A stretch of 64,000 nucleotides of DNA from Favolaschia claudopus (taxonomy: Eukaryota; Basidiomycota; Agaricomycetes; Agaricales; Mycenaceae), in contig JAWWNJ010000024.1 of the NCBI GenBank assembly GCA_037176885.1, positions 1,426,001-1,490,000 on the forward strand, given 5' to 3'. The notes below the pieces were generated by a model. That model saw nothing but the letters and a program-made list of their open reading frames with translations. It was not told the DNA's origin and searched no databases. Positions 9,652 through 64,000 of this stretch are shown piece after piece. The translations under genes were made by a program, and so were the position numbers. Numbering within the stretch: the first letter of the stretch is position 1; each line of letters opens with the position of its first letter.

Positions 9652-10917
<1,266 letters not shown>

Positions 10918-34239: not shown

Positions 34240-34663
34240 GATTTGGGGTTTCGATGGCTTCTCGGTGCCCGATTCTTCGCGATTTATACAGATTCTCGGG
34301 ATCCGCAGCCTTGGCGACGGGAATTGGTAAGAACTCGGCCTTTGACTCGGGCTGATATTGCCGTGTTCGGCCTTGGCAGATTTTCTCAAGTAATCGGTGA
34401 AATGGTTCTGAGTGGAGGAAAAATGAGAGGATCAGCGAATATAAATCATCGGTCGCAAGAAACGATACCATTTTGAATCTTTTTAGAGGAGGAAGAACCT
34501 GGAAGAACATTCGGTTTCGTGATGCTCACTTTCATACGGCTGAAGTCCCCGTTCAACTTCATTTTGTGGCCAAGCATGGGTTTGGAAAGCATACTTATCA
34601 GTGCGGGTTCCAGAGCGAACCATCAAATTTCATCCAATGTATTTATTAGCTACCGCCACGAAA

Positions 34664-35930
34664 TCATGCTAGCCCTTCCACGACTGCGGCCTCCTGCATC
34701 TTCTCCCTGAAAATCTTTTCTGCGGCGCTCCACACAGGCGAGGTCTGGGTATTGGCGAAATCCAACAACGAAGGCAAGAGGTCCTGACTGAATTTTTCTG
34801 ACGCCTCTCTGGGAACGAGTGCGGGTAAGTGGTCGATTGACACGACGGAGATGGGTGGATTTGAAGCGCTAATAGAGAATTTGAATAGCGTCAGACTATG
34901 AATCGATATAGAACACGAAACGAGCACTGACCCTACGTCCACAGGCACCGTTGGCTCGATAAACGTCGTATTGATGCTGTAGACGGGAAGCGGATTGAAA
35001 GGATTCGTCGTATCGCAGCTGACGTCCACGATGATGGACAAACGCCGTTGAGGACCGGCCGCGATTAGCTGTTCCCGAGTGATGAAGGGGAGGATCTGGC
35101 TGCTAAGGTAGATACAGTTGACGAATATGTCAACGTCCAGGATTTCGTTGAACGGGCCGCCCTTCGCGGTCTCCGCCATATCCCACTTGATGATATTGTC
35201 GCTGAGAACATCGGATTATAATTGAAAATGAGAGGGAAAAACACTCACTGTGGCACCCCGGCTCTTTGGAATAATTCGACTGCTCCGCTGCCACAGCGTC
35301 CTAACGCACCAATAACCAACACCTTGACATTTTGCTTCCCCAACGCCTCTTCAACTGTCTTCACCATAGCCGCTTCCGTCTCGAACGCGTTTAATCGCCC
35401 CAGCTTCTCACCCTCGCTCTGCTTTGCAAATGCCAACGCACCAACCGCAGCCCCAGCGAATCCCGCATGGAAGCCAAACGCGGCGACGCGTCGCCCCGTC
35501 GTGTCGGTGAGGAATTCGATGTCGTAGAGCGTACCCCCGCCCCGGTGGAAACGAGAGAGGATGGATGACCACCCGGCTTGTTTCTTGTAGCAATGGCCGA
35601 AGTAGATGTGTTTATGTGCGAGAGGCTCGGTGGATTCTTGGAGCTCCTTGAGTCCTATGATCGTTGCCGACGGTGGTGCGGTACGCCATGAATTGTGATC
35701 CACTAGGGTACAGCCCGCTCTGAATGAGATTTGATTCAAATCATCATGGGCCCAAGCCATGATTCGACGTACGCTTCGTATTCAGAGTCGTCAAACGTCC
35801 GTTGTTCGTCGCGTTCAACAAAAACAGTAAAACCTGCCTCGATGAGGCGTTTGGCAGCGATGGGCGCCAAAGCGGCGCGGCGTTCGAGTTCTTTGGTTTC
35901 GCAGCGGAGCCAGAATATAGGTTTGCCCAT
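34664..35930 (-). CDS. LYS1: Saccharopine dehydrogenase (NAD+, L-lysine-forming), copy 3
   Basis: Exons 35773-35930, 35249-35719, 34932-35201 and 34664-34868 give 367 residues with all family motifs. It begins MGKPIFW rather than MSKPIFW and ends EGLA. It is intact although the neighbouring hydrolase is truncated, so LYS1 is the one gene kept whole in all three blocks. Confidence 0.94.
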
Positions 35931-36519
35931 CTTGAGGTGAGAGTTACTGACTGAAATGGCTTGGAGGAAATTCAAAGGAAATTTGATTTGACTCACAGTG
36001 AGTCATGCGATGATTCCTATGCCCTCAAACTGTGCACTGGTCGTTCTTAAGTCCTCCCGTCCTTCCAATATACTTGGAGGTATCAACTGTCTCCACCTCA
36101 GCCTAAGATGCTGAGAGATGCTGGCAGCAGCCTGAGGAACGCAGCAAAGGTGCAATTGATTCAGGTGCGTACTTATAGCGTGGTCCCTCGTTTTCATAGT
36201 GGTTCGATGAGGGTCGCGCCGTTGGGCATACCCTTTGCGTCACTCTAGTCTGCGGTGCTGTCTACAGTAGTGTCGGCCACAGTCGGAAAAAGTATGTGCA
36301 AAGCAAGAGGAAAAAGCTCACTGATGACAAACCCTAACCTTAGATGTCGGCCATTGCTGGTGATTGCTGTGGCTGAAGAGACGACTCTGAAGAGTCCAGT
36401 CGGCGCATCCGACTCGCGGAGTCGCTTTCTTGCGCAATTGCTCGTTTCTTGCTCATTCTTCCGTTGCTCTTTGGCGTCTTCATGGACCTGAAACCTGAAA
36501 GTTGAACTCTTCGTATAAT
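35931..36519. repeat. LYS1 upstream region, end of gene block copy 3
   Basis: Homologous to 10918-11490 and 24963-25555, including the small plus-strand intron (about 36294-36342). Similarity ends sharply at 36519 after CTTCGTATAA; the C-rich unit and the module array are missing beyond this point. No complete gene. Confidence 0.5.
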
Positions 36520-43057: not shown

Positions 43058-43150
43058 TTTAAATACCCATCACAACTGTTGGAGTTCACTTCCTTCCTTC
43101 CTCATCCTCCTCCTTCCCCCCAAACCTCCTCCTCCCCGTCCTTCATTTCG
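43058..43150 (+). promoter_or_regulatory. Core promoter of the AA9 gene: TATA-like box and CT-rich tract
   Basis: TTTAAATA at 43058-43065 is followed by a pyrimidine-rich tract (43086-43150) running up to the ATG at 43153. This arrangement is common at strongly expressed basidiomycete genes, with transcription starting in or just after the CT block. Confidence 0.55.
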
Positions 43151-43152
43151 CC

Positions 43153-45478
43153 ATGAAATCCTTCACCGCCGCTCTCTTCACCGCCTCGCTCGCTACCTCC
43201 GTCGTCGCCCACGGTTGGGTCGGCAAACTCACCGTCAACGGCAAAGCCTTCAAAGGCAACGAACCGACCGAGCAGACGCCAAACGGCGCGCCCAGCGTCG
43301 TCAGGCAGATCGCGAACAACCTCCCCGTGAAGGACACCACCTCCCCCGACATCACCTGCGGCCGATCAGCCAAACCCGCCGCGCTCGTCGCCACCGCCGC
43401 ACCCGGAGACAAGCTGCAATTCAACTGGAATACGCTCGCTGCTGGCGGGTTGTGGTTCCATGACGTGGGGCCGATGATGACCTATCTTGCGAGTTGCGGC
43501 AGTGGGAGTTGCGCGGATTTCGATGCCAGCAAGGCGAAGTGGTTCAAGATCGATGAGCAGGGTCAGTTGGCGGATGGGACCTGGGCTCAGGCAAAGCTTG
43601 GTGAGTTTCCTTTCGCTTTTCGTTCCTTGGGTCTTCCGGCGGTGTGTCATCGTTTTTTTCGTTTTTTTTTTTTTTTTTTTTTTTTCCGTGGTGTTACGCG
43701 TCGATTTTCGTCGGGAATCAACTCCAACGCACGATCGCTCCACAGTCACGCATGCGAGCGATCGGCGTAGACGTGGGCACCCCAAGTGTTGTGGTCCTCT
43801 TCTCCCTCGTTGATGTTTGGTCGTTGTACGGTGTTCTCCATGCGGGCCCCGAACGTCTCGTCTTTGGTGTGAAGTGTGGATGCCGCACCACATAGCGCGT
43901 CGGCGACGAAATACGTCGAAGGATTTGGAATCGGAGTGAATTCCTCATCTTGTTGTTCATTGCCCTACGGCAACAAGCTTCACTACCTCCATTGTTTTGT
44001 CGTCAGTTCGGTGGTTTGTTCTGGTGTTGCACTCTGATACCCCGGCGATCTTGGTCGGTGATCCTTTTTGATGTTCGTCGCTGTATTGCGCCGTGTAGCA
44101 TTGATGCCGCCCCCACCTTTTGGTTTTTCGTGTTTGATGCTTCGTCGACGTGCGGCGCCGATCTTCACCATGGTTGAGAGCATCGTGTCTGCGGTTTCCC
44201 TCAAGCGTGCCGCGTTATTTTTCTCGTGCTTCTATCTTTTTTCGTCTCTTTCCGTTTATACTTTTCGTTCTGCTTCTATTCTTTCTGTTTATACTTCTCT
44301 ATTTTTGCGTTGGGCTTCCATTGTTGGAGCTCTGTGTGCTATTCGCAGCTCTTGTTTACTTCCCGGTTCGTACGGGTGGAATGCGTTGGAGACGGCCCTT
44401 GGCACCCTGTTGTTCTCATCCATGGGATTATTGCACAGTTCATTGACGGAGGTTTCCATGGGCGTTGCCCTCGAGTGACGTTACGGCGCCGATCTTTGGT
44501 TTCGTATGGCTGAGAGCATCGGGTTGAGTGCGCGGGCTCGTTTTGTTCTTTTTCTACTTCTCCATCTTTGCGCTAGGCTTCATTGTTGGAGCGCTAAAGC
44601 ACCTTCTCCTTCTCCCGGCTTCCTTCTTGTTATCCTTTCCTGCTGTGGCCTGCAGTGGAAATGCTCGATCACGGTCAGAACGCGACGGCCCTTCGCACCC
44701 TGGTGTTTCCCGAGCGTCTCGATTTTTCTTCATGTTTCTATCTTTTCTTGTTTCTGCCTTTTTTTCTACGTCGAATCCTTGCCTTCCCTTTTGTACTTTC
44801 ACTACTCCTTCCCTTACTAACCTATCCCCAGACACCGGCGCTCCCGCCTCCGTAACCCTCCCCTCCAACCTCAAAGCCGGCAACTACCTCGTCCGCAACG
44901 AACTCATCGCCCTGCATACCGCCCAATCCGAAGGCAACGCCGAGTTCTACCCTTCCTGCTCGCAGTTGACCGTCACCGGCTCCGGCACGGGCGTCCCCGC
45001 CGCCAGCGAGCTCGTCAGTTTCCCTGGCGCGTATAAGCCGAAGGATGCGGGGATTCTCATCGATGTGCGTGGTTCCGCTCCCGCTGTTTTTTATGATTGA
45101 ATTGACACGGGGGTGTAGATCTACAACATGAGGCGAGGCTCGTACAAGTTCCCTGGGCCCGCTATCGCCTCGTTCGTCAAGGGCGGTTCGGCGCCTGCGG
45201 ATCCCTCTGCCGACCCTCCTGCTGAGACTACGAAGGAGCCCGCATCGACGTCGACGAAGACGAAGGGCGCAGCGTCGACGTCCACTGCTGCACCGCCGAA
45301 GAGCACCGGCACCGGCAAACCAGCCAAGTCGTGCAAGCGCAGGACTAGGCGCGCTGTCGAGGCCATCGTTCCCGAGGCCGTCGAAGTTGAAGTCGAGGTC
45401 GCCGCGGAAGACCGCATCCCTGACGTCCGCCGCTCGCGTACGCGCCACCTGCATCGGTTTGGTGCCAAGTCGTTCTAA
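43153..45478 (+). CDS. AA9 lytic polysaccharide monooxygenase (cellulose-active family)
   Basis: Three exons (43153-43600, 44832-45064, 45119-45478) give 346 residues. A 19-residue signal peptide ends in VVA, leaving His20 as the N-terminal copper ligand (HGWVGKLTVNG). His103 in WFHDVGPMMTYLASC is the second ligand of the histidine brace. The H-x8-Q-x-Y motif reads H178-x8-E187-x-Y189, that is Glu for Gln. FYPSCSQLTVTGSG and IYNMRRGSYKFPGP complete the domain. There is no CBM1; instead the last 100 residues are a Ser/Thr/Pro linker and a charged, Arg-rich tail. Role: copper-dependent oxidative cleavage of cellulose or related glucans outside the cell. Intron 1 is 1231 bp, about twenty times the local norm. 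Confidence 0.9.
43662..43685 (+). repeat. Poly-T run in AA9 intron 1
   Basis: An uninterrupted run of about 24 T, 60 bp inside the long intron. Its length may be affected by sequencing error. Confidence 0.8.
44155..44780 (+). repeat. Diverged tandem duplication inside AA9 intron 1
   Basis: A segment beginning CGCCGATCTTCACC (44157) is repeated from 44487 (CGCCGATCTTTGG). Both copies continue with GAGAGCATCG, then TACTTCTC(T/C)AT(T/C)TTTGCG, CCATTGTTGGAG or CATTGTTGGAG, and ACGGCCCTT(G/C)GCACCCTG. The spacing is about 300-330 bp. The duplication accounts for much of the excess intron length. No frame in it is coding. Confidence 0.6.
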
Positions 45479-46854
45479 GCGCCCCAGCCTCTTCCCCCTT
45501 ACATGACGAACACGAACAACACATCCCCTCGACATTCCCTACCAAACACCCACACGATTCCTCCGACTCACTGTCTCTTCTCTTCTCCCCTGCACGCCTT
45601 GCTTTGCTTCGCTTTCCCTGCTTTCCCAGAACCATCCAGCCGCCGAGTGCCGCCGATACGTAGACCTAGCGTTTATTGCGTATGTATTGTAGACTCCCGA
45701 GTGGAGATTGGCTTCTTGCGAGTCGAGGAGTCGAAGAAGTATTTGAAGAGTTATAGCTTTGCTAGCCTAGTAGCTGGCGCATCATGTATTGAATTCTTGT
45801 GCATAGATACACAGAAATTGAAATTGAATTGAAGAAATGAAAAGCAAACGGGCCAAGAGATTCAAGAAAAGACTGAAGGATATGATTTTTTTTTCGGGAG
45901 AAATCGGAGGATCCTTTGTTTGGCTGTCGTTTGTGCGGTCTTGGTGATTTAACCACCACCACCTCCTCATCTCTAGCCAGTCGCTTGCACCTCCGTCTCT
46001 TATCCGACTCTATCGCTTTCCTTGTGGTCACCGTTGGCGTACCGCGAAAATTGAATCAATGGCAAATCAATGGTCCAAAAAAAAGCGAATCGACTGCAGA
46101 ACTTCAGCTTGAAGCCTAGCCGCAAGTGTGAAATAATGAAGACTCGGAGGGCGTAGGCTCTGTCGATATACGTGCGATGCATCCAAGCTTCGATGCGAAA
46201 ACCACCCGGTGGCAGGAGAAGCACGCGGAATGCGCACAATTCTCGCCTTGCTTTGAGGTGGCATGCAAGATGGCTGGGCTGTCTTCCGATTGTTGTCTCC
46301 GACTTCGGCCTTCGACACCATCCACAGTTGCTGCCGTTACATAAGGGAGCCCTCTTCTCGCCGTGAACATTTCTCTTCACAAATTTTCGATAAAACTCTT
46401 CTTTTTAATTATCTCTTACGGTGGCGATGCGATGGAGTAGACGTCACCTCTCGTCAAGCAAGCTCATGAAATCGGTGCGACACGGACGCGCTCTCAACTT
46501 GAATCAACTAACCGCCGTTGATCTACAGCCAAAACTTCCACCACATAAACAGGCAAAACAATCGCATTCGACGTATGACTAACAGTACAACTTGACAGCT
46601 GGGCGCTAAACGCGCTCGTACAAGGTACAACAAAACACGGGTCGGGGTAGCAAATCAGAGCATATACAAAGCGGAGAAGGAATTCGTGGCGCGTCGTGAC
46701 GATATTGAGTATGTGGGTTTCTTATCTCTTGAGGGAGGACAATGAGAAAGAGGATTCGAAGAATCCCGGCACAACTTGATGCTTCCTAGGGGATCACACA
46801 TTCAGCACGATGGCGCTCTACTATGTGCAACGAAGACTTCAATCACCTGGACAA
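45479..46854. other. Intergenic stretch
   Basis: Holds the 3' ends of the AA9 gene and of the convergent gene at 46855-47975. Short frames only (for example minus 46000-46380); nothing recognised. Confidence 0.4.
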
Positions 46855-47975
46855 TCAAGGGCCGCGATAGCTCGAGCCCGGGGGCTTTCCTCCTCGCTGG
46901 CTACTGCTGCCAGGCTGACCAGGCCAGTACTGGCCGCCCGGATTCTGCGCGGGTGGATACGCGCCGTATGGGTACGTTCCTCCCCCTGCATACGAGGCTG
47001 GACCTCCTCCGTACTGATTCGGCGGAGCCTGCGTATACTGACTCGGAGCTTGTGGGTTGTATGCATTCGGAGCCTGGGGATAGCTAGGGTGCCCTTGGTA
47101 GCCGGGGTACTGACTCTGAGACGGCACCTGGCCCGACGATGGTGGCATGTAGGAACTCGAAGAGGGCTGACCATGACTGGAGGGATACAAATATCCCGGC
47201 TGCTGCTGCGTGCCTCCAGACCTGGAATTGCCTGCGGAAGGGTTGGGCGCCTGTTGGCCAGATCCTGGTATCACCCAACCGCTACCCGAGCTCTGTGCAA
47301 TCGGGGGAGCTGGCTCTTGTGGTTTGTATTTATATTCACGAGGCTGATCAAGATACTTGTTGTAGGCCCAGTAACCGCTGGGTTGCGGAGGCGTGCGACT
47401 GACAGACAACAAAAAGTCAGCACGCGGGCTCTGAGCGTCGATGACTAGATAATAACTTACGGATCAACATTCGAAATAACTGGCACCTCCTGGTTGAATC
47501 CTTGATAGCTGCGCTCAAAGTTCTTGTCGCCGGAATCTTTCTGTTCATTAATATTTCACATCAGCGACTCATTCCAGGCGCAAATGGATTCCATTCACCT
47601 TGACCGCCTTACGCAAGAACTCCGATTTCTGCTGAAGTTCAGACAGTCGCATATCAAGACTTCCCGCGTTCTTGCCATGAGCGGCCAAGGCTCTGGATTC
47701 CAACGCATTCGCTTGTTGTTGGAGTCTGTAACACTTGCAGCACAACGCAAGATCGTAGGAGAAAATCAATACTTGGTCAACTCGGGCTGGTGTTTGTGCA
47801 CCAACGCCGGACTGGCTTCTTCGTTCATCGTGTTTCGCGTTTTGACCAGCTTCTCGTGAGATTTTCTCAAACTGAGTTTGCGACTCCGTGTGGTCAGAAA
47901 GCCACCGACTGTCTGCTTCGGTGGTTGGCGAGGTGGGGGTGCTTGCTCGTTGGAATCAGACTCAGAGTCGGACAT
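46855..47975 (-). CDS. Unrecognised protein with coiled-coil segment and prion-like C-terminus
   Basis: Exons 47802-47975, 47599-47733, 47461-47540 and 46855-47398 join in frame to 310 residues. The N-terminus MSDSESDSNEQAPPP is acidic and disordered, followed by a basic patch (TRSRKLSLRKSHEKLVKTR) and a helical stretch (LQQQANALESRALAAHGKN) likely to form a coiled coil. YWAYNKYLDQPREYKYKPQ precedes about 140 residues rich in Gln, Pro, Gly, Tyr and Ser (PGYQGHPSYPQAPNAYNPQA and similar). This composition is typical of proteins that form condensates or bind RNA. No catalytic domain is visible. Exon 1 to 2 splicing (donor GTGCAC) is the least certain part. The promoter borders the tandem array at 48131. 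Confidence 0.6.
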
Positions 47976-48055
47976 TCTCCAGGGTGGACAAGACGGATGT
48001 GGCGCCACCGGGTTGAGGGATGAAAATTGTGTGCACCCACAGGTCGAACCAGCAC

Positions 48056-49497
48056 TTATAACCTATAAGCTGTACTTATCACGGAACTCACGGGGACACG
48101 AGGAAATAAAGAATGGAAGATCGTAGACAGCGCCTTTACCTCTTTGAAAACACTGGGCTGCACGAGTAAAATTGCCCGCGCCGCGACGAGAAAATTACGG
48201 CCGGCTCGACCAGCCCGCTGCATCCAGATAGAAAGCGAGGTAGGAACCATGAATTGGACCACCTGCTCAACGTGCGGAATATCGCAGCCCTGGAGCTTGG
48301 TGAGACACACATTTAAAGTTAATATAAAGCACGCACCATCCCTGCCGCTTCCGTCGCTAGCAAGATTTTTATTTCGCCCTTTCGAAACTTCTCCATAATA
48401 ATGCGCTTGGATCGTTTACTACGGCGTGAGTGATACAAGGCAATAGCTCCCCGCATATGACGAGGTAGCAAATCCCGCAGATGCTCGAGAGCATCCATCG
48501 CTAAATTGATGTCATCGAAGAACACCATGCTCTGTATCAGCTCGATTATAGCATCCTCGGAGCCCTGCGCATCGACGAGAAAATTGAGCGCGTCGAGATC
48601 CGACTTCGCTCCCTTCATATGTTGGACAAACCAAGCAATATTCGGTCGATCCGTTCCGAGATTGACATGGTACGATGACTCGGGGAAGATGTGCAGAGAT
48701 TTGCGCACTTCCTCGAGCACAAGAGGGGGGAGGGTCGCAGATGCAAACAAGAAAGGAACATGGAGAGGGACAAACGCACGAAGAGTGCCCAGTTTGGAGT
48801 ATTCAGGTCGAAAATCTTCGCCCCACTGTGAGATGCAATGGGCTTCGTCGATGACAAAAGCGGCAATCTTCTTGGCGAAAGCGGGTGTACTGATCAGTTG
48901 CCGAAACTTGTCGTGTTTTAAGCACATATCCGGCGAAGTGATAATAACTTGATGCTTGAATTCTTCAATCTCTGGATTTCCGCGTCAAAGGGTGTCAAAT
49001 CGTCGAACAAAACCAACAGGACGCGCCTTTGTGAATTTCCGACGTGTAGGTATCTCCGTTAACTGCCACAGCATTAAGTCCCATCTTCCGAAAACGCGAA
49101 GCCTGTTGTACAGAGAGCTGAATGAGTATCTTCCGACGCGTCAAAACCAAACACGCACCTGATCTATCTCCAACACATTCAACGGAGAAATGACCACCAC
49201 AATCTGGTCCGAGTTCTCGAACAGCGGCATCACAAATGGCATAGTCTTGCCCGCGCCGGTGCCCGCTATCAGGCTACAGTCGAGGCCTAGGTGCAAAGCT
49301 TCCGCCACATTCACTTGCCATTCATGGGCAATCAGTCCCTGTGTCCTGGTCGTGAATTCGTTCCGAATCCGGGCGCGTGTCGGAGCGGATTGATAACCAC
49401 GAGTCTTCAACGCGTCAAGGCGTGCCTTCTCAAGGATCTTCTGGAACTTCGCGGCATCGCGCTGATGAGATTCCAGTCGTGATTGGACAGCGGGCAT
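48056..49497 (-). pseudogene. RecQ-family helicase, unit 1, 3'-truncated
   Basis: Exons 49159-49497, 49027-49102, 48337-48971 and the beginning of exon 4 (from 48289) are identical to the complete copies. Homology stops at 48131, after QPSVFKEVKA; the frame then reads into flanking DNA and ends at 48056. All helicase motifs I-VI are retained, but the Zn-binding Cys cluster and the long C-terminal tail are missing. It could still make a bare helicase core. Confidence 0.85.
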
Positions 49498-49744
49498 CGT
49501 AAAAGCAGTACAGAAGAAGCCAGATGAGTTGATATCAACGAGAGAATGGGCGGCAGCGTCGACGGATGAGCAGACAGACGGGATTGAGGCAGAGGACGCG
49601 TCGGGACACGAGATGTCACGCTTTTGCTGGCAGCGTGACATCGAGCGCAAGGTCCCCGGCTAAAGTGCACCAGACGTTATAGAGCAGCAACCGCGATCAA
49701 TTTTTTCCATCATTCTGCCTCGCCGTCATTTCAACATCTTAACA

Positions 49745-49830
49745 TTGCCCTTTTGGGTAGCGGTGCGCTCGCAGAGCGCGAGCGGTTGCTGCTCTTAAAC
49801 GTCTGGGTTCGAGACTAGAGGGGGAATAAT
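49745..49830 (+). other. tRNA-like / Pol III-type segment in the divergent promoter
   Basis: A hairpin with a 5-bp stem GCTCG/CGAGC and 7-nt loop resembles an anticodon arm, GGTTCGAGAC downstream resembles a B box, and CCCTTTT / AGAGGGG could pair as an acceptor stem with two wobbles. Position 33 of the loop is A instead of T and the D and T arms do not fold well, so it is not a working tRNA. It may be a decayed tRNA or a tRNA-derived SINE fragment. Repeated at 55715-55800 and 61685-61770. Confidence 0.3.
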
Positions 49831-49837
49831 CTCGGCT

Positions 49838-49911
49838 CCAGATCTTCACGGTGATGCCCGGGGCAGTCCCATCAACCAAATCACCAGCAGCATCACCCCC
49901 AGAAGATCTGG
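49838..49911. repeat. Two-part inverted repeat in the divergent intergenic region (unit 1)
   Basis: Outer arms CCAGATCTTC (49838-49847) and GAAGATCTGG (49902-49911) enclose inner arms GGTGATGC (49850-49857) and GCATCACC (49890-49897), both perfect. The 18 paired bases could form a cruciform or a protein-binding site. Placed between the two divergent genes. Identical copies at 55808-55881 and 61778-61851. Confidence 0.8.
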
Positions 49912-49956
49912 TGCACTTTGACCGCGGGCCTTGCGCTCGGTGACCTCTGTCACATT

Positions 49957-49984
49957 TGTAACACTTTGTAACACGATGTAACAC
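49957..49984 (+). promoter_or_regulatory. Three TGTAACAC iterons at 10-bp spacing (unit 1)
   Basis: TGTAACAC occurs at 49957, 49967 and 49977, exactly one helical turn apart, 18 bp before the DUF6589 start codon. Such spacing puts all sites on one face of the helix, as expected for cooperative protein binding. Identical copies at 55927-55954 and 61897-61924. Confidence 0.65.
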
Positions 49985-50002
49985 GTCCCCTAATTATTAT
50001 CG

Positions 50003-52706
50003 ATGGACGACAATCTCGAATTTCTCTTTGTCGACGAGCCCCCTCTTGAGCCGGATGACACAGAGAGCCATCTTGGGAATGAACCCGACTTTCCCGCTCT
50101 TTCAAATGAAGCAACTGGTCCCATCAATGAGCCCATGAGCCGCACCAATTCACGACATTTACGCGCGAAACTCCAGCCTGGGCAGCTCATCAGCAAAGTC
50201 TTGGCTGTTCTCAATACATTGACAGCACAGGGACTAGATCTTCCTATATTTCTCGACGCGTTGAGCTGGGGAGATCAGGATTGTATATCCAACAAGACTG
50301 TGCAATATGCACGGACCTCGTTGATGACAAGTGAAGAACTTCCTCAAATATTGGAACGGTGGTATCGTCCTCCTCGCCATCAATCTGGCGGGCAGCGGCC
50401 GGAAGGGGGCCGAAGAACGCTTCTTGATTTCTCTTTTACCACAATTGCCGACATTGTGGACCAAGAAATGAAGATCTTGGCTCCACTTTTCTTGTCGCCA
50501 CCCGAGAATCTCTCGGAGGAACACCTCACAGATCTCGACTTCGAGAGCTTGAAGGGGGAGATCCAAGGATCTGCCCCAATTCTCTGGAATATCTTGCGCC
50601 GAGCTGCTTCCACTGAAGTACGGTACCAACACAAAAACAAAAATCCGGACATGGTATTTGTCTCTTCTTTCAAACAAAGAATCAGTTCTTATAAGTATTT
50701 AGATCATCCTACACATGATCTCTCAAGCGCAATACTCTCGATCCAATCGTCGAGGACGTATAGCCAAATTGTGGTCCATCTATTTGAAGGCCTGCGGCTT
50801 GTCTGCGCGGGCTTTTGATGCCCTGCATGTGCTCGGGATTCTCATGAGCCATCGATGGACAGCAGAGGCGTTCGAGACGGTTTCGGACAGGGCAATGGAT
50901 CTCGCAAAGAAGCTTATCCACGAGTATCCCTGGGCACTCTCTCATGATAACATCAACGTCCCTCTTCGAGTTTTCTCGCAACGGCTACATAACCAGAGTC
51001 ATTTCATCAGCGGATGTGCGTATACGGTTTGGATTCTTCCAATCCTTGCAGCACTTCCGCCTGGCACCAATCCGCTTCTGCAGTCCTTCCGAGCTGAACA
51101 TTGCCAACGTGTTTTCGATTTTGCCGAGGTGCTCTATGGCGACGAAGAAACAGACGACCGGATGGAGGCTTTCAACCGCCATCATGTACTACAACTCCTG
51201 CTTCGCTGCCCAGCCTTCGCAGATTATCCCCATCATTCAGATTCTCTGTTCAATCGCCCTCCTCCCGTTCATCAGCTTCCCGGGGGTCCCGAGAATATAG
51301 TTCGCGGATTTATTCTGAAGACCAGCTCATTTGAAGAGGCTAGTTACGATGGGACCCTCAACGTGATGAATGATGCATTTCAGCAGCTTTCTTTGAACTC
51401 GGCTGAAGAGCGGAAACGAACGGCGGGTGAGCGGGTCATTGCTTGGATGGGTGATCAGCTTACTGTTGAGCGGCTCCGCGGGCTGTGGAAATATCGCCAT
51501 GAAGATCACAACTCATTCGATCGATTGGACTATATGATTCCAGTCTTTGGCTGGTTCCACCTTGTTATGTCATTCGCAAACTCAATTCACAAACAATATC
51601 TGGGCACCTCTGCTGTAATCGGTGGTCTGCGGCAAGCATTTGATGTTCTGCAGCGCAAGGGTCTGATATCACAGTCAACCAAAGGTCCATTCTGGCACAA
51701 TCTGGATGAAGCTATACATCACATCAGCGAAGCTCATTTCCGGGCGTGCTGGCTAGATGTTGGAGGCGTCGAAAAGTTAGAAGATCTGAAATCCAAATCC
51801 CCTGCCGAGCTATGTGAACTTGCAGGGAAACTGGTTGAAGATTATGCTTCGCGATCTGCCCTCAATACAATGGAGGACATGAACAGCGAAGCACGAGACG
51901 GGGTCTTCTACCAATGGACAATGTTCAACATGGATGTCTTACCATATTTGCAGCTTCGGGAGGCAATCAGATCTGGCGACGTTGGTCGAATTGAAGATTT
52001 TCTTCCAACATTATTATTTCGGTTCGCGGGTAGCGGCTTTCCGAAGTATGCGATTGAGATTCTGGAATTACTCCAAGGCCTCCGTCAAGAGTGGCCGGAG
52101 GTTGTTCGGTATGCGCTCATCTTCTGGCAGCTGATTTACTGCTCACATATGTTTTCAGAAATTATATCAAGCAGTTTTGTTGGCTGATGACACGGACTGG
52201 CAAGCCCCATAACTGGCTTCCATACGATCTCGCTCAAGAGGAGAATATTTGCGACATCAAGGTTTTGCTTTTATGTCTATTCATTCCAGTATCGCATTTG
52301 ATCTGAAATTGATTCATACCAGGTAAACTATCGCTCTCAGGGTCCCGGCGCAACCATGGAATATATGGGAAAGGTTTCACCTGCGATTCCTACACTTCGT
52401 AAAGTTCAAAGGCACATGGAGAAACAGTTCCGCACTAATACACGCGGGGCACGGCATGGTGTGCCAGACAAAGAGAAGGATGTCTCAAAGTTAACTGAGC
52501 ATTATCTGGCTTCAAAGCTTCATACCTATATTCCGGGAAGGGAACTCAAGACACCTCGCATTCCAGACTTTGTGACGGAAGGAGCCGAGAACTTGGAGAA
52601 AATGAACACTATTGCGGATTGGTTCAAGCGGCGAACTCATGCAAGGGAAACTGGAGAAGACTGGTCAGAAGAGATTGAGGACATTTTCTTACAGCCTCTA
52701 CTATAA
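50003..52706 (+). CDS. DUF6589 family protein, unit 1 (putative transposase-like)
   Basis: Four exons (50003-50653, 50703-52108, 52159-52261, 52323-52706) give 847 residues. After an acidic leader come FLDALSWGDQDC and RWYRPPR, then NPDMIILHMISQAQYSRSNR. The core follows with HDNINV (about 299-304), GDQLTVERLRGL (467-478), PVFGWFHLVMSFANSIH (498-514), AGSGFPKYAIEILELLQGLR and QFCWLMTRTGK. DIKVNYRSQGPG and a basic tail end it. This order matches DUF6589 of agaricomycetes as I remember it. Asp in HDN, Asp in GDQLT and the WFHLV motif look like RNase H-fold transposase signatures, but function is unproven. It is divergent from the helicase gene and shares its promoter region. Confidence 0.75.
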
Positions 52707-52853
52707 GTAATTGATTTGTATTAATGCGTCTGACCTGAACTCGACTCGCGCCGGCAACTGAGATAGGTTTCCTTTTTCGGTTTATGAGTAATCAATTGAA
52801 CGGAAAGTACTGGAAGTAATTTTGAAGCTCGAGAACGAAAGAGCAAGTTGTGA

Positions 52854-55467
52854 TTAAGGAATCATATCATTATAGTCTACGGAGGGATGAATTTCGCTAT
52901 TAGTAGATCGTTGTTGATCAGGAATATGGTTAGCATGAGATGCAGAGGTGCCGGGCGTGTCGGAAATGAGGGACGGATGTCCAGGTATGAAGGCGGGAGG
53001 AAGCCGAGGGCCGTAAAATGAGGTGGGAGCGAGGTGCTTCCAATCATATCGTGGTGGTAAGCCAGTCTGTATTGGCGGCGAAGAGTATGATGAGCCAGGG
53101 GTCGGAGTTTCGAATTGCAGTCGGCTATGATGGAGTGGCGGCAAGGAATGCATTCCATGGAATAAAAAGCTAGGGGATTGGTGGGCTTGGTGAAGAGGGG
53201 GATGAGAGAAATGTGATTGAGGAGTTTCGGGTGTAGCAGTGATAGACTGCAGCAAATGCAGAGGTTCTGGGAAATTATCAGGGAAATCAGAGCCGAAATC
53301 AGAGTGATATGGCGAAGGATATGGGACGTTCGGGGATGTGAGTTGAGGAATCGGAGTGGGCTGCAGAGTTGATCGAGGCTTTGCGCGGGATTTTCGGGGC
53401 TGTGGCGGAGGCTTGTTACGTGCCTTCTCAGCACGCGCGAGAGCCTTCTGTTCTTTAGCAAGCCGCTGGCGCTTTGCGGTCTCTGCCTTCTTTTCCTCCC
53501 GCTTCCGTTTGATACTTTCCGCCCGTGCCTCTTTGTAGTCCGTGTCGTACTGCGAAAGCAAAGCGACGATCTGCTCCCCATGCTTCCCAGCATGTGTCGG
53601 ACTCCAGCCTGCTCCAACGAAGTCTGCGACGGATCGGAGATGGGCTCGAGTCGCAATTTTCGTCAGGACATCGTCAGGCATTAAAGCCTTGAGTCCCCAG
53701 GGACGGCGGCGGTAGAGCCCTGTGCCGAGCTGGGTTCTCCACTCCGTGAGAAGTTTTCGAGCGCCTTGGAGATGCTCCTCTCGCCGATACTGCGAAGGGG
53801 AGGGAGCTGCAGGAGCAGATGGATCACCTGCAGATCGAGGTTGCAGTGAGGCATGATGCGGGTCAGATTTGCGGAGGCAATTGTCGCAGCAGATCCCGGT
53901 TGGACCTTGAATTATTCACTGAGTGCTTGCACGAAACAGAGAAGGAAGAGAAGACGGAGGAACTCACGCGATCGGACGGTAGCATTGTCAAAGTACTCGT
54001 CAGCTATATCACGTCGACAACCCTCTGTCTCAATCCAAGCTCGAAGAGCAGTCTCAACCGATTTCTGGAATGTTACGTTCTCGGTCGGCGCTGAATCCTT
54101 CGCCTTTACCTCTTTGAAAACACTGGGCTGCACGAGTAAAATTGCCCGCGCCGCGACGAGAAAATTACGGCCGGCTCGACCAGCCCGCTGCATCCAGATA
54201 GAAAGCGAGGTAGGAACCATGAATTGGACCACCTGCTCAACGTGCGGAATATCGCAGCCCTGGAGCTTGGTGAGACACACATTTAAAGTTAATATAAAGC
54301 ACGCACCATCCCTGCCGCTTCCGTCGCTAGCAAGATTTTTATTTCGCCCTTTCGAAACTTCTCCATAATAATGCGCTTGGATCGTTTACTACGGCGTGAG
54401 TGATACAAGGCAATAGCTCCCCGCATATGACGAGGTAGCAAATCCCGCAGATGCTCGAGAGCATCCATCGCTAAATTGATGTCATCGAAGAACACCATGC
54501 TCTGTATCAGCTCGATTATAGCATCCTCGGAGCCCTGCGCATCGACGAGAAAATTGAGCGCGTCGAGATCCGACTTCGCTCCCTTCATATGTTGGACAAA
54601 CCAAGCAATATTCGGTCGATCCGTTCCGAGATTGACATGGTACGATGACTCGGGGAAGATGTGCAGAGATTTGCGCACTTCCTCGAGCACAAGAGGGGGG
54701 AGGGTCGCAGATGCAAACAAGAAAGGAACATGGAGAGGGACAAACGCACGAAGAGTGCCCAGTTTGGAGTATTCAGGTCGAAAATCTTCGCCCCACTGTG
54801 AGATGCAATGGGCTTCGTCGATGACAAAAGCGGCAATCTTCTTGGCGAAAGCGGGTGTACTGATCAGTTGCCGAAACTTGTCGTGTTTTAAGCACATATC
54901 CGGCGAAGTGATAATAACTTGATGCTTGAATTCTTCAATCTCTGGATTTCCGCGTCAAAGGGTGTCAAATCGTCGAACAAAACCAACAGGACGCGCCTTT
55001 GTGAATTTCCGACGTGTAGGTATCTCCGTTAACTGCCACAGCATTAAGTCCCATCTTCCGAAAACGCGAAGCCTGTTGTACAGAGAGCTGAATGAGTATC
55101 TTCCGACGCGTCAAAACCAAACACGCACCTGATCTATCTCCAACACATTCAACGGAGAAATGACCACCACAATCTGGTCCGAGTTCTCGAACAGCGGCAT
55201 CACAAATGGCATAGTCTTGCCCGCGCCGGTGCCCGCTATCAGGCTACAGTCGAGGCCTAGGTGCAAAGCTTCCGCCACATTCACTTGCCATTCATGGGCA
55301 ATCAGTCCCTGTGTCCTGGTCGTGAATTCGTTCCGAATCCGGGCGCGTGTCGGAGCGGATTGATAACCACGAGTCTTCAACGCGTCAAGGCGTGCCTTCT
55401 CAAGGATCTTCTGGAACTTCGCGGCATCGCGCTGATGAGATTCCAGTCGTGATTGGACAGCGGGCAT
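52854..55467 (-). CDS. RecQ-family DNA helicase, complete copy (units 1/2)
   Basis: Five exons (55129-55467, 54997-55072, 54307-54941, 53968-54259, 52854-53905) give 797 residues. Motif I is AGTGAGKT (78-85), Ia ISPLNVLEIDQ, II VIDEAHCISQWGEDFRPEY (DEAH 180-183; the usual GHDFRP is GEDFRP), III FASATLPP, V TEAAGMGCDIPHVEQVV, VI QRAGRAGR. The Zn cluster is CRR plus CCDNC (about 431 and 452-456). The last 340 residues hold a Lys/Glu/Arg/Ala-rich helix and a Pro/Ser/His-rich disordered tail. Start MPAVQSRL was chosen; an in-frame extension to 55620 is possible. Intron 2 appears GC-AG (AAAG|GCGCGT). Role: ATP-driven 3'-5' DNA unwinding in the nucleus. Convergent with DUF6589, 147 bp apart. Confidence 0.88.
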
Positions 55468-55972
55468 CGTAAAAGCAGTACAGAAGAAGCCAGATGAGTT
55501 GATATCAACGAGAGAATGGGCGGCAGCGTCGACGGATGAGCAGACAGACGGGATTGAGGCAGAGGACGCGTCGGGACACGAGATGTCACGCTTTTGCTGG
55601 CAGCGTGACATCGAGCGCAAGGTCCCCGGCTAAAGTGCACCAGACGTTATAGAGCAGCAACCGCGATCAATTTTTTCCATCATTCTGCCTCGCCGTCATT
55701 TCAACATCTTAACATTGCCCTTTTGGGTAGCGGTGCGCTCGCAGAGCGCGAGCGGTTGCTGCTCTTAAACGTCTGGGTTCGAGACTAGAGGGGGAATAAT
55801 CTCGGCTCCAGATCTTCACGGTGATGCCCGGGGCAGTCCCATCAACCAAATCACCAGCAGCATCACCCCCAGAAGATCTGGTGCACTTTGACCGCGGGCC
55901 TTGCGCTCGGTGACCTCTGTCACATTTGTAACACTTTGTAACACGATGTAACACGTCCCCTAATTATTATCG

Positions 55973-58676
55973 ATGGACGACAATCTCGAATTTCTCTTTG
56001 TCGACGAGCCCCCTCTTGAGCCGGATGACACAGAGAGCCATCTTGGGAATGAACCCGACTTTCCCGCTCTTTCAAATGAAGCAACTGGTCCCATCAATGA
56101 GCCCATGAGCCGCACCAATTCACGACATTTACGCGCGAAACTCCAGCCTGGGCAGCTCATCAGCAAAGTCTTGGCTGTTCTCAATACATTGACAGCACAG
56201 GGACTAGATCTTCCTATATTTCTCGACGCGTTGAGCTGGGGAGATCAGGATTGTATATCCAACAAGACTGTGCAATATGCACGGACCTCGTTGATGACAA
56301 GTGAAGAACTTCCTCAAATATTGGAACGGTGGTATCGTCCTCCTCGCCATCAATCTGGCGGGCAGCGGCCGGAAGGGGGCCGAAGAACGCTTCTTGATTT
56401 CTCTTTTACCACAATTGCCGACATTGTGGACCAAGAAATGAAGATCTTGGCTCCACTTTTCTTGTCGCCACCCGAGAATCTCTCGGAGGAACACCTCACA
56501 GATCTCGACTTCGAGAGCTTGAAGGGGGAGATCCAAGGATCTGCCCCAATTCTCTGGAATATCTTGCGCCGAGCTGCTTCCACTGAAGTACGGTACCAAC
56601 ACAAAAACAAAAATCCGGACATGGTATTTGTCTCTTCTTTCAAACAAAGAATCAGTTCTTATAAGTATTTAGATCATCCTACACATGATCTCTCAAGCGC
56701 AATACTCTCGATCCAATCGTCGAGGACGTATAGCCAAATTGTGGTCCATCTATTTGAAGGCCTGCGGCTTGTCTGCGCGGGCTTTTGATGCCCTGCATGT
56801 GCTCGGGATTCTCATGAGCCATCGATGGACAGCAGAGGCGTTCGAGACGGTTTCGGACAGGGCAATGGATCTCGCAAAGAAGCTTATCCACGAGTATCCC
56901 TGGGCACTCTCTCATGATAACATCAACGTCCCTCTTCGAGTTTTCTCGCAACGGCTACATAACCAGAGTCATTTCATCAGCGGATGTGCGTATACGGTTT
57001 GGATTCTTCCAATCCTTGCAGCACTTCCGCCTGGCACCAATCCGCTTCTGCAGTCCTTCCGAGCTGAACATTGCCAACGTGTTTTCGATTTTGCCGAGGT
57101 GCTCTATGGCGACGAAGAAACAGACGACCGGATGGAGGCTTTCAACCGCCATCATGTACTACAACTCCTGCTTCGCTGCCCAGCCTTCGCAGATTATCCC
57201 CATCATTCAGATTCTCTGTTCAATCGCCCTCCTCCCGTTCATCAGCTTCCCGGGGGTCCCGAGAATATAGTTCGCGGATTTATTCTGAAGACCAGCTCAT
57301 TTGAAGAGGCTAGTTACGATGGGACCCTCAACGTGATGAATGATGCATTTCAGCAGCTTTCTTTGAACTCGGCTGAAGAGCGGAAACGAACGGCGGGTGA
57401 GCGGGTCATTGCTTGGATGGGTGATCAGCTTACTGTTGAGCGGCTCCGCGGGCTGTGGAAATATCGCCATGAAGATCACAACTCATTCGATCGATTGGAC
57501 TATATGATTCCAGTCTTTGGCTGGTTCCACCTTGTTATGTCATTCGCAAACTCAATTCACAAACAATATCTGGGCACCTCTGCTGTAATCGGTGGTCTGC
57601 GGCAAGCATTTGATGTTCTGCAGCGCAAGGGTCTGATATCACAGTCAACCAAAGGTCCATTCTGGCACAATCTGGATGAAGCTATACATCACATCAGCGA
57701 AGCTCATTTCCGGGCGTGCTGGCTAGATGTTGGAGGCGTCGAAAAGTTAGAAGATCTGAAATCCAAATCCCCTGCCGAGCTATGTGAACTTGCAGGGAAA
57801 CTGGTTGAAGATTATGCTTCGCGATCTGCCCTCAATACAATGGAGGACATGAACAGCGAAGCACGAGACGGGGTCTTCTACCAATGGACAATGTTCAACA
57901 TGGATGTCTTACCATATTTGCAGCTTCGGGAGGCAATCAGATCTGGCGACGTTGGTCGAATTGAAGATTTTCTTCCAACATTATTATTTCGGTTCGCGGG
58001 TAGCGGCTTTCCGAAGTATGCGATTGAGATTCTGGAATTACTCCAAGGCCTCCGTCAAGAGTGGCCGGAGGTTGTTCGGTATGCGCTCATCTTCTGGCAG
58101 CTGATTTACTGCTCACATATGTTTTCAGAAATTATATCAAGCAGTTTTGTTGGCTGATGACACGGACTGGCAAGCCCCATAACTGGCTTCCATACGATCT
58201 CGCTCAAGAGGAGAATATTTGCGACATCAAGGTTTTGCTTTTATGTCTATTCATTCCAGTATCGCATTTGATCTGAAATTGATTCATACCAGGTAAACTA
58301 TCGCTCTCAGGGTCCCGGCGCAACCATGGAATATATGGGAAAGGTTTCACCTGCGATTCCTACACTTCGTAAAGTTCAAAGGCACATGGAGAAACAGTTC
58401 CGCACTAATACACGCGGGGCACGGCATGGTGTGCCAGACAAAGAGAAGGATGTCTCAAAGTTAACTGAGCATTATCTGGCTTCAAAGCTTCATACCTATA
58501 TTCCGGGAAGGGAACTCAAGACACCTCGCATTCCAGACTTTGTGACGGAAGGAGCCGAGAACTTGGAGAAAATGAACACTATTGCGGATTGGTTCAAGCG
58601 GCGAACTCATGCAAGGGAAACTGGAGAAGACTGGTCAGAAGAGATTGAGGACATTTTCTTACAGCCTCTACTATAA
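55973..58676 (+). CDS. DUF6589 family protein, unit 2
   Basis: Predicted protein identical to the unit 1 copy at 50003-52706, with exons 55973-56623, 56673-58078, 58129-58231 and 58293-58676. The full intergenic region with its inverted repeat and iterons precedes it. The last donor before exon 4 (GTTTTG) is weak in every copy. Confidence 0.75.
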
Positions 58677-58823
58677 GTAATTGATTTGTATTAATGCGTC
58701 TGACCTGAACTCGACTCGCGCCGGCAACTGAGATAGGTTTCCTTTTTCGGTTTATGAGTAATCAATTGAACGGAAAGTACTGGAAGTAATTTTGAAGCTC
58801 GAGAACGAAAGAGCAAGTTGTGA

Positions 58824-61437
58824 TTAAGGAATCATATCATTATAGTCTACGGAGGGATGAATTTCGCTATTAGTAGATCGTTGTTGATCAGGAATATGGT
58901 TAGCATGAGATGCAGAGGTGCCGGGCGTGTCGGAAATGAGGGACGGATGTCCAGGTATGAAGGCGGGAGGAAGCCGAGGGCCGTAAAATGAGGTGGGAGC
59001 GAGGTGCTTCCAATCATATCGTGGTGGTAAGCCAGTCTGTATTGGCGGCGAAGAGTATGATGAGCCAGGGGTCGGAGTTTCGAATTGCAGTCGGCTATGA
59101 TGGAGTGGCGGCAAGGAATGCATTCCATGGAATAAAAAGCTAGGGGATTGGTGGGCTTGGTGAAGAGGGGGATGAGAGAAATGTGATTGAGGAGTTTCGG
59201 GTGTAGCAGTGATAGACTGCAGCAAATGCAGAGGTTCTGGGAAATTATCAGGGAAATCAGAGCCGAAATCAGAGTGATATGGCGAAGGATATGGGACGTT
59301 CGGGGATGTGAGTTGAGGAATCGGAGTGGGCTGCAGAGTTGATCGAGGCTTTGCGCGGGATTTTCGGGGCTGTGGCGGAGGCTTGTTACGTGCCTTCTCA
59401 GCACGCGCGAGAGCCTTCTGTTCTTTAGCAAGCCGCTGGCGCTTTGCGGTCTCTGCCTTCTTTTCCTCCCGCTTCCGTTTGATACTTTCCGCCCGTGCCT
59501 CTTTGTAGTCCGTGTCGTACTGCGAAAGCAAAGCGACGATCTGCTCCCCATGCTTCCCAGCATGTGTCGGACTCCAGCCTGCTCCAACGAAGTCTGCGAC
59601 GGATCGGAGATGGGCTCGAGTCGCAATTTTCGTCAGGACATCGTCAGGCATTAAAGCCTTGAGTCCCCAGGGACGGCGGCGGTAGAGCCCTGTGCCGAGC
59701 TGGGTTCTCCACTCCGTGAGAAGTTTTCGAGCGCCTTGGAGATGCTCCTCTCGCCGATACTGCGAAGGGGAGGGAGCTGCAGGAGCAGATGGATCACCTG
59801 CAGATCGAGGTTGCAGTGAGGCATGATGCGGGTCAGATTTGCGGAGGCAATTGTCGCAGCAGATCCCGGTTGGACCTTGAATTATTCACTGAGTGCTTGC
59901 ACGAAACAGAGAAGGAAGAGAAGACGGAGGAACTCACGCGATCGGACGGTAGCATTGTCAAAGTACTCGTCAGCTATATCACGTCGACAACCCTCTGTCT
60001 CAATCCAAGCTCGAAGAGCAGTCTCAACCGATTTCTGGAATGTTACGTTCTCGGTCGGCGCTGAATCCTTCGCCTTTACCTCTTTGAAAACACTGGGCTG
60101 CACGAGTAAAATTGCCCGCGCCGCGACGAGAAAATTACGGCCGGCTCGACCAGCCCGCTGCATCCAGATAGAAAGCGAGGTAGGAACCATGAATTGGACC
60201 ACCTGCTCAACGTGCGGAATATCGCAGCCCTGGAGCTTGGTGAGACACACATTTAAAGTTAATATAAAGCACGCACCATCCCTGCCGCTTCCGTCGCTAG
60301 CAAGATTTTTATTTCGCCCTTTCGAAACTTCTCCATAATAATGCGCTTGGATCGTTTACTACGGCGTGAGTGATACAAGGCAATAGCTCCCCGCATATGA
60401 CGAGGTAGCAAATCCCGCAGATGCTCGAGAGCATCCATCGCTAAATTGATGTCATCGAAGAACACCATGCTCTGTATCAGCTCGATTATAGCATCCTCGG
60501 AGCCCTGCGCATCGACGAGAAAATTGAGCGCGTCGAGATCCGACTTCGCTCCCTTCATATGTTGGACAAACCAAGCAATATTCGGTCGATCCGTTCCGAG
60601 ATTGACATGGTACGATGACTCGGGGAAGATGTGCAGAGATTTGCGCACTTCCTCGAGCACAAGAGGGGGGAGGGTCGCAGATGCAAACAAGAAAGGAACA
60701 TGGAGAGGGACAAACGCACGAAGAGTGCCCAGTTTGGAGTATTCAGGTCGAAAATCTTCGCCCCACTGTGAGATGCAATGGGCTTCGTCGATGACAAAAG
60801 CGGCAATCTTCTTGGCGAAAGCGGGTGTACTGATCAGTTGCCGAAACTTGTCGTGTTTTAAGCACATATCCGGCGAAGTGATAATAACTTGATGCTTGAA
60901 TTCTTCAATCTCTGGATTTCCGCGTCAAAGGGTGTCAAATCGTCGAACAAAACCAACAGGACGCGCCTTTGTGAATTTCCGACGTGTAGGTATCTCCGTT
61001 AACTGCCACAGCATTAAGTCCCATCTTCCGAAAACGCGAAGCCTGTTGTACAGAGAGCTGAATGAGTATCTTCCGACGCGTCAAAACCAAACACGCACCT
61101 GATCTATCTCCAACACATTCAACGGAGAAATGACCACCACAATCTGGTCCGAGTTCTCGAACAGCGGCATCACAAATGGCATAGTCTTGCCCGCGCCGGT
61201 GCCCGCTATCAGGCTACAGTCGAGGCCTAGGTGCAAAGCTTCCGCCACATTCACTTGCCATTCATGGGCAATCAGTCCCTGTGTCCTGGTCGTGAATTCG
61301 TTCCGAATCCGGGCGCGTGTCGGAGCGGATTGATAACCACGAGTCTTCAACGCGTCAAGGCGTGCCTTCTCAAGGATCTTCTGGAACTTCGCGGCATCGC
61401 GCTGATGAGATTCCAGTCGTGATTGGACAGCGGGCAT
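58824..61437 (-). CDS. RecQ-family DNA helicase, complete copy (units 2/3)
   Basis: Predicted protein identical to that of 52854-55467, with exons 61099-61437, 60967-61042, 60277-60911, 59938-60229 and 58824-59875. All helicase motifs and the Cys cluster are intact. Lack of any difference, including in introns, means amplification or gene conversion is recent. Confidence 0.86.
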
Positions 61438-61942
61438 CGTAAAAGCAGTACAGAAGAAGCCAGATGAGTTGATATCAACGAGAGAATGGGCGGCAGCGTC
61501 GACGGATGAGCAGACAGACGGGATTGAGGCAGAGGACGCGTCGGGACACGAGATGTCACGCTTTTGCTGGCAGCGTGACATCGAGCGCAAGGTCCCCGGC
61601 TAAAGTGCACCAGACGTTATAGAGCAGCAACCGCGATCAATTTTTTCCATCATTCTGCCTCGCCGTCATTTCAACATCTTAACATTGCCCTTTTGGGTAG
61701 CGGTGCGCTCGCAGAGCGCGAGCGGTTGCTGCTCTTAAACGTCTGGGTTCGAGACTAGAGGGGGAATAATCTCGGCTCCAGATCTTCACGGTGATGCCCG
61801 GGGCAGTCCCATCAACCAAATCACCAGCAGCATCACCCCCAGAAGATCTGGTGCACTTTGACCGCGGGCCTTGCGCTCGGTGACCTCTGTCACATTTGTA
61901 ACACTTTGTAACACGATGTAACACGTCCCCTAATTATTATCG

Positions 61943-63236
61943 ATGGACGACAATCTCGAATTTCTCTTTGTCGACGAGCCCCCTCTTGAGCCGGATGACA
62001 CAGAGAGCCATCTTGGGAATGAACCCGACTTTCCCGCTCTTTCAAATGAAGCAACTGGTCCCATCAATGAGCCCATGAGCCGCACCAATTCACGACATTT
62101 ACGCGCGAAACTCCAGCCTGGGCAGCTCATCAGCAAAGTCTTGGCTGTTCTCAATACATTGACAGCACAGGGACTAGATCTTCCTATATTTCTCGACGCG
62201 TTGAGCTGGGGAGATCAGGATTGTATATCCAACAAGACTGTGCAATATGCACGGACCTCGTTGATGACAAGTGAAGAACTTCCTCAAATATTGGAACGGT
62301 GGTATCGTCCTCCTCGCCATCAATCTGGCGGGCAGCGGCCGGAAGGGGGCCGAAGAACGCTTCTTGATTTCTCTTTTACCACAATTGCCGACATTGTGGA
62401 CCAAGAAATGAAGATCTTGGCTCCACTTTTCTTGTCGCCACCCGAGAATCTCTCGGAGGAACACCTCACAGATCTCGACTTCGAGAGCTTGAAGGGGGAG
62501 ATCCAAGGATCTGCCCCAATTCTCTGGAATATCTTGCGCCGAGCTGCTTCCACTGAAGTACGGTACCAACACAAAAACAAAAATCCGGACATGGTATTTG
62601 TCTCTTCTTTCAAACAAAGAATCAGTTCTTATAAGTATTTAGATCATCCTACACATGATCTCTCAAGCGCAATACTCTCGATCCAATCGTCGAGGACGTA
62701 TAGCCAAATTGTGGTCCATCTATTTGAAGGCCTGCGGCTTGTCTGCGCGGGCTTTTGATGCCCTGCATGTGCTCGGGATTCTCATGAGCCATCGATGGAC
62801 AGCAGAGGCGTTCGAGACGGTTTCGGACAGGGCAATGGATCTCGCAAAGAAGCTTATCCACGAGTATCCCTGGGCACTCTCTCATGATAACATCAACGTC
62901 CCTCTTCGAGTTTTCTCGCAACGGCTACATAACCAGAGTCATTTCATCAGCGGATGTGCGTATACGGTTTGGATTCTTCCAATCCTTGCAGCACTTCCGC
63001 CTGGCACCAATCCGCTTCTGCAGTCCTTCCGAGCTGAACATTGCCAACGTGTTTTCGATTTTGCCGAGGTGCTCTATGGCGACGAAGAAACAAAACGTCT
63101 GGGTTCGAGACTAGAGGGGGAAAAGAGGGACGAAGATGGTGGTGGGAAGAGAAAGACAATGCCCATCAAAATCAACCATCAGCTGCGGAACACGTGTTGC
63201 GCACGGACCCTGATGCCAAGACTTTGGACTTGGTAG
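61943..63236 (+). pseudogene. DUF6589 family protein, unit 3, 3'-truncated
   Basis: Identical to the other copies up to residue about 366 (EVLYGDEET), then broken at 63092. The frame continues through unrelated sequence and stops at 63236. The GDQLT and WFHLV motifs and everything after them are lost, so no transposase-like core remains. Confidence 0.9.
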
Positions 63237-64000
63237 ATTTCTTCCCAAGTCCGCATGTGGCCGTGAGGCCGTCTGCCCCCTCCTGCTCGCTCCCGCCACT
63301 ATAGCCTATACCACGACAACGAAGACATCCCACAACACTTCTAAGTCAGTAGCTCTCGCGACTGCATTGGCATCAAGAGTCAAAGATTACTTAAATGTAA
63401 TGTACGAGACTCTAGATCTGGTCATCGCCGTCACCACCCATGCTCGATCTCAACGCATAGCCTGTGCGCGGCTCTCAAGGAAGCATCTTAGCTAGCTGGA
63501 AATTGGGGGATCATATATATTGAGTGAGCTTGATTTTTTTTTCGTCGAGGGTGCCGTGCTGTAGAATCCATTGTCAGGGTAGACTTTGGTGTGACCGATG
63601 GTGCGCTTCAGATCTATGCGGGCACATTATATTGTTCATTATAGTGGTCCCCTGGTGCTATATTGACTATGTAGTTCAATATAGATACCACTTGAGCTAC
63701 ATTGACTACAGGCACTACAGCAAGCAATATACCTAAGCGGGCAACTACGGCCCGGAGAGTTTTTCCTGATGCCGGGCCGCCTTGGTGGGTCCACAAAGAG
63801 GTTATAGAACAATGGGAGCCTCCACTGTCGAGCGATTTGGTACTTGACACGCGTTTGCTCCAGTTGATAATGTTCCCAAGACAATATCCCCAATTGAGCA
63901 AGAGATGAGTTGTACAAGCTGGCGAGATAAACACCGAAGTCTGGGCAGCTGCCGGGAACGAGTAGAAGACCCAGTTAATCAGAAAAGGTCTGCATCGCAT
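63093..64000. other. Right flank of the tandem array
   Basis: The first 30 bp (63093-63122) are an exact extra copy of 61737-61766, the B-box-like end of the intergenic region. The rest is unique in this window. Several short frames occur, none recognised. I see no gene. Confidence 0.5.

Follow-up and report, generated by a model that had tools for sequence, protein, structure and literature searches.

A tandem array of a RecQ helicase-bearing DNA transposon, likely of the AcademH type, in Favolaschia claudopus

To understand why genes for a RecQ-like helicase and a DUF6589 protein recur side by side in the mushroom Favolaschia claudopus, we analysed a window of 64,000 nucleotides (C24:1426001-1490000) and searched the corresponding genome assembly (264.6 Mb, 460 contigs). 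Judging by size and identity, this is the genome reported at 265 Mb with 86.8% duplicated BUSCO genes and assembled with Falcon and Arrow from PacBio libraries of >10 kb (PMC10905254). An initial annotation of the DNA had proposed the two genes as a candidate new mobile or self-amplifying element, and the question is what is repeated here and how it came to be repeated.

Register of the array and ends of the element

Comparison of the window with itself at an offset of 5970 revealed an exact run of 8,992 bp from position 48131 (48131-57122 = 54101-63092); the exact repeat spans 48131-63092, which is 14,962 bp or 2.506 periods with 0 differences, in agreement with the 5970-bp unit repeated about 2.5 times of the initial annotation. 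When the 5,970-bp period was used to search the genome (at least 95 matches), many places matched it up to position ~1687 or from ~1697, and some of these are short and hold only these two ends. The element itself is 5,961 bp long, with the left end TAATCTCGG, the right end CGAGACTA and imperfect terminal inverted repeats (14/20 bases). Its ends inside the array lie at 49817/49827, 55787/55797 and 61757/61767, the final copy stops at 63113, and the nonamer GAGGGGGAA is found between all copies and again at 63114-63122 (Table 1). The unit as first drawn, a head-to-head gene pair round one regulatory region, was thus out of register, the supposed regulatory region being the right end, GAGGGGGAA and the left end of two adjoining copies. 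A 5,970-bp self-amplifying module built on such a pair would fit the gene order seen across a joint, but the genes are head to head only there; they converge within each element, as they do in the single copies L009, L010 and L011, and element ends fall inside the region, which makes this reading highly improbable and led us to reject a promoter common to the pair. Plain tandem duplication of a host segment was also rejected, because the joints coincide with transposon ends. A lone TAATCTCGG at 14054, outside the array, has no CGAGACTA nearby and is likely due to chance.

Table 1. Coordinates of the array, its genes and its target within the window
Feature	Position	Strand	Details
Copy 1, left-truncated	48131..49817	+	element positions 4275-5961; identical to last 1,687 bp of copy 2
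GAGGGGGAA, joint of copies 1/2	49818..49826	+	
Copy 2, complete 5,961-bp element	49827..55787	+	TAATCTCGG...CGAGACTA; ends common to genomic copies with 9-bp duplications
DUF6589 gene of copy 2, predicted transposase	50003..52706	+	849-aa model; exons 50003-50684, 50728-52108, 52159-52261, 52323-52706
RecQ-like helicase gene of copy 2	52854..55611	-	845-aa model, five exons; second intron GC-AG
GAGGGGGAA, joint of copies 2/3	55788..55796	+	middle of the supposed common regulatory region
Copy 3, complete element	55797..61757	+	identical to copy 2
DUF6589 gene of copy 3	55973..58676	+	open, as in copy 2
RecQ-like helicase gene of copy 3	58824..61581	-	same as copy 2; copy 2 coordinates + 5970
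GAGGGGGAA, joint of copies 3/4	61758..61766	+	
Copy 4, internally deleted	61767..63113	+	element 1-1326 and last 21 bp; inner join without a shared base
GAGGGGGAA, right-hand target-site duplication of array	63114..63122	+	
Right part of older repeat, insertion target	63114..63771	+	89% to C149:481988-482657, 81% to C16, 75% to C173

A perfect 9-bp target-site duplication was present in all 21 fetched copies in which both ends were located (15/15 in a first set, for which 18 loci were examined, and 6 more in a second), and its sequence varies between insertions. These 21 rows represent 20 independent insertions, because L024 and L026 have the same duplication and flank. The count leaves out L011, L014 and L015, where one end was seen, and L016, L017, L045, L046, L048, L053 and L055-L061, where not both ends were recognised; L034 is the array's own copy 4. 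Genome-wide, the exact left-end pattern was counted 130 times compared with 0 for a reversed control, and some copies between the same ends, of 212-1,356 bp, cannot accommodate both genes. Of the other long copies, the nearest is on C235; it is 99.1% identical to the array element over 5,471 bp and contains two insertions. In this copy (L009, C235:43500-53300) each insertion is bordered by a repeat of 8 element bases (162-169 and 5625-5632), such as a transposon with 8-bp duplications would leave, and the transposase gene seems frame-shifted near residue 247. Defined ends, the duplications in 21/21 copies and the recent movement of a derivative (described below) bear out the suggestion that this DNA is mobile.

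The target of the insertion is an older, unclassified repeat of ~1.6 kb (583-2173 of L035, on C149; also on C16 and C173). On these three contigs it runs ~920 bp further left than in the window, and we did not find this left part in 44001-48130, which means that the array does not begin at the original insertion border. There is a deletion, other join or assembly fault at 48130/48131, where copy 1 is cut at element position 4275 and no bases are shared. A search for an empty site with the left flank (46000-48130) returned, apart from the self-match, four matches on C25 and C71 at 69-77%, and with a wider flank we found no clean counterpart of 46461-63775, and no empty site, on these contigs. 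C24, C25:227187-241331 and C71:714584-738306 are related, rearranged host segments, the larger matches being 77-88% identical. Elsewhere in the window are three related segments with alpha/beta hydrolase genes, ~90-91% identical (6606-12504, 20629-26586 and 33766-36507), and an AA9 (LPMO) domain (43063-43767, E 8e-28). Scanned against Rfam at gathering scores, the window gave 0 matches, and in a scan for viral contigs 0 of 62 pattern stretches were confirmed by tblastn.

A predicted transposase and its helicase partner

Pfam searches recovered the gene content originally described, with DUF6589 (PF20231, E 4e-95) on the + strand and pieces of a DEAD/Helicase_C helicase on the - strand. Both helicase domains score above cut-off, RecQ_Zn_bind is a weak match below it, and the names of homologues include DNA 3'-5' helicase and RecQ. 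The GC-AG intron of our helicase model is also implied by P0121, the model deposited for the C235 copy, and the deposited DUF6589 model (P0001) has a later start and a different first intron from our 849-aa model. DUF6589 is the only Pfam family in this protein at E up to 10. Its best protein match, from F. claudopus, has 99% identity over 95% of the query, and relatives occur in many Agaricomycetes; there are at least 117 DUF6589 HMM matches in this genome, counted exon by exon and hence in fewer genes. The motifs pointed out in the initial annotation are present and conserved in 55 aligned homologues: D255 (HDN) is D in 52 and N in 3, D424 (GDQ) is retained in 54 with one gap, and H459 (WFH) is retained in 54, while E669 is found in 55/55. 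In an AlphaFold2 model of P0001 (55 homologues, mean pLDDT 88.9, pTM 0.82), D255 is in the first long strand, D424 directly follows strand 419-423 and E669 is in a late helix (664-682); the last helix is preceded by a long insert made up of helices. Predicted secondary structure and knowledge of the family suggest strands and helices ordered as in the RNase H-like fold of DDE transposases, with D255, D424 and E669 as the putative catalytic triad, so that the structure prediction proposed at the outset points to a nuclease-like fold with a conserved D/D/E. A profile search of solved structures gave two irrelevant matches (E 0.86-0.89), and none of the papers searched contained DUF6589. For this Pfam family without known function, the likely function would be that of transposase in a helicase-bearing DNA transposon.

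To follow the two genes beyond F. claudopus, we compared the best 120 of 135 DUF6589 proteins with the best 120 of 600 helicases. Among the matches listed, at least 24 contigs from 20 species carry both, two of them from F. claudopus; contigs were taken as the same when the exact number of bp was equal in both lists, and species names agree in 24/24. Evidence that the pair is itself neighbouring comes from three cases of consecutive gene tags (PAXINDRAFT_12087/12088, BN946_scf185016.g48/g49 and ONZ51_g5810/g5811) and from joint occurrence on short contigs of 5,312 and 8,377 bp. The distance matrices of the two proteins are correlated over 22 pairs (r 0.878; 0/5000 permutations as high), two of the 24 contigs, with two listed helicases each, having been dropped; the annotated helicase that belongs to P0001, P0131, is a truncated fusion, and P0121 of contig C235 took its place. 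Although species descent can add to this correlation, Mycena vulgaris holds two lineages, 67% (P0008) and 41% (P0081) identical to the window protein, and their coexistence shows that the co-divergence does not stem from species descent alone. The link between DUF6589 and RecQ suggested for other agaricomycetes thus holds among the matches listed, and the pair is an old and lasting module.

The helicase is not needed by every copy. A 3,174-bp derivative without a helicase match is present at L012 and L013, identical in 3,173/3,174 bases, with unrelated flanks and different duplications; it has moved recently, and the helicase is therefore not needed in cis, although one acting in trans perhaps served it. 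Copy 1 retains the 5' portion of the helicase gene (on the - strand), and the deposited model P0131 (46858-49497, -) continues this truncated helicase in frame across 48130/48131 into a host gene whose tail is proline-rich, giving a predicted helicase-host fusion. Helicase fusions in fungi have been ascribed to AcademH, among others (PMC10799480), and the truncated helicase spliced to a host gene in this deposited model provides a concrete candidate. A 1,049-aa protein of Mycena rebaudengoi (P0234), which has Helicase_C and is named 'ribonuclease H-like domain-containing', is possibly a helicase fused to a transposase.

How the array may have arisen

We regard it as probable that a 5,961-bp DNA transposon stands at this locus in four head-to-tail copies, two of them complete and two partial, with the same 9 bp after each, and that this transposon is of AcademH type, with the DUF6589 protein as predicted DDE transposase and the RecQ helicase as a likely accessory. 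Since the same nonamer follows each copy, the array most likely goes back to one insertion that multiplied in place. The absence of any difference over 14,962 bp, copies 2 and 3 being identical, upholds the earlier view that copying was recent, and because the C235 copy does differ, it favours multiplication in place over separate arrivals. The joint of exact ends with 9 bp between them occurs three times in the genome, each time in this array; as only 3 of the 130 exact left ends form such a joint, the family does not habitually multiply in place in this genome, where the array is unusual.

The same joints would be expected if the element had inserted repeatedly beside a resident copy, with an element end as preferred target and a staggered cut round the same nonamer each time. 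However, such exact joints are absent elsewhere in the genome, and copies 2 and 3 are identical compared with ~0.9% difference in the sole other long near-identical copy found; we therefore consider separate insertions unlikely. An assembly error, either in the number of copies or at the left join, has to be weighed too, since an exact repeat of ~15 kb was assembled by Falcon from libraries of >10 kb and the left border has no element end and is not preceded by the left part of the target repeat. We think this quite unlikely, because the joint, the nonamer and the right-hand duplication agree to the base and copies 1 and 4 break differently; by our reasoning, moreover, an overlap of nine bases would not mislead a long-read assembler.

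We envisage a transposase that makes its cuts at the TAATCTC/GAGACTA ends and links these to a target staggered by 9 bp; the helicase probably helps to open the DNA or to mend the donor gap. In the array, a single insertion in the older repeat would have been multiplied by a process coupled to replication or repair that re-used the same 9-bp joint, either as a rolling circle or by slippage of gap repair between the two identical 9-bp duplications. Subsequent joining of broken ends would have left copy 1 truncated and copy 4 internally deleted. Such slippage would account for the common nonamer and for copy 4 as well as a rolling circle would. A fuller version, in which a DDE transposon with its own RecQ takes a replicative side path at excision, and rolling-circle or slip-back copying between the duplications, with strand displacement driven by RecQ, yields a head-to-tail array with broken ends, is speculative, and we rate it as unlikely. 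If it were true, AcademH would be a cut-and-paste transposon also able to amplify in place. The proposed self-amplifying, Helitron-like module is not borne out: ordinary 9-bp duplications flank the single copies, and the derivative that lacks the helicase gene moved recently. At a single target site, the array preserves the likely product of in-place multiplication of a DNA transposon and lets the role of a RecQ helicase carried by such an element be tested directly, and the exact ends and 9-bp duplication make the element usable in an excision assay.

Comparison with known systems

Helitrons, like this element, bear a helicase; they encode a Rep/Hel protein and are not known to make a target-site duplication, and tandem copies are conceivable through circles. 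Among the Pfam matches listed, neither Helitron_like_N nor PIF1 matched P0001 or P0121, and we rejected a Helitron given the lack of a Rep/Hel domain among these matches and the presence of target-site duplications and inverted repeats. Telomere-linked helicase genes are subtelomeric and are not known to have transposon ends; they were rejected since the window lies at 1.43-1.49 Mb of a contig of at least 2.16 Mb, and ends and duplications are present. Kolobok elements generate a 4-bp TTAA duplication. KolobokH resembles our element as a fungal DNA transposon with a RecQ helicase, but is described with the helicase downstream of the transposase domain (PMC9587614), whereas here there are two separate, convergent genes, and these together with 9-bp duplications of varied sequence led us to reject it. 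The example of KolobokH does raise the prospect of a superfamily apart from Academ that independently acquired a RecQ helicase: the transposase was set beside Academ by published description, and DUF6589 is the sole Pfam family found in it at E up to 10. This is nevertheless distinctly unlikely, because a 9-bp duplication and a RecQ-like helicase are traits reported for AcademH, in Basidiomycota as well.

The closest parallel that we found for the array itself is in maize, where tandem repeats with truncated and re-joined ends at Ac/Ds transposons have been ascribed to rolling-circle re-replication followed by repair of the ends (PMC4270019). In contrast, Ac/Ds are hAT elements with 8-bp duplications and their repeats include host DNA; here only the element and the nonamer are repeated.

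The original paper on AcademH is reportedly that of Kojima in 2020 (Mob DNA 11:15). AcademH elements are described as encoding a helicase and making duplications of 9 or 10 bp (PMC10045372), and as occurring in Basidiomycota (PMC10799480); putative non-autonomous Academ elements have been noted in the mushroom Marasmius oreades (PMC8290104). As such helicase-bearing transposons have been published, the pairing described here needs no new kind of element, contrary to the initial annotation. The array differs in that the AcademH descriptions cited here mention no tandem array with one common duplication. The likeness, drawn from published description, lies in a helicase-encoding DNA transposon (DEAD and Helicase_C) with a duplication in the 9 or 10 bp range (9 bp in 21/21 rows) and a basidiomycete host, and on this published description the element is likely a new member of AcademH.
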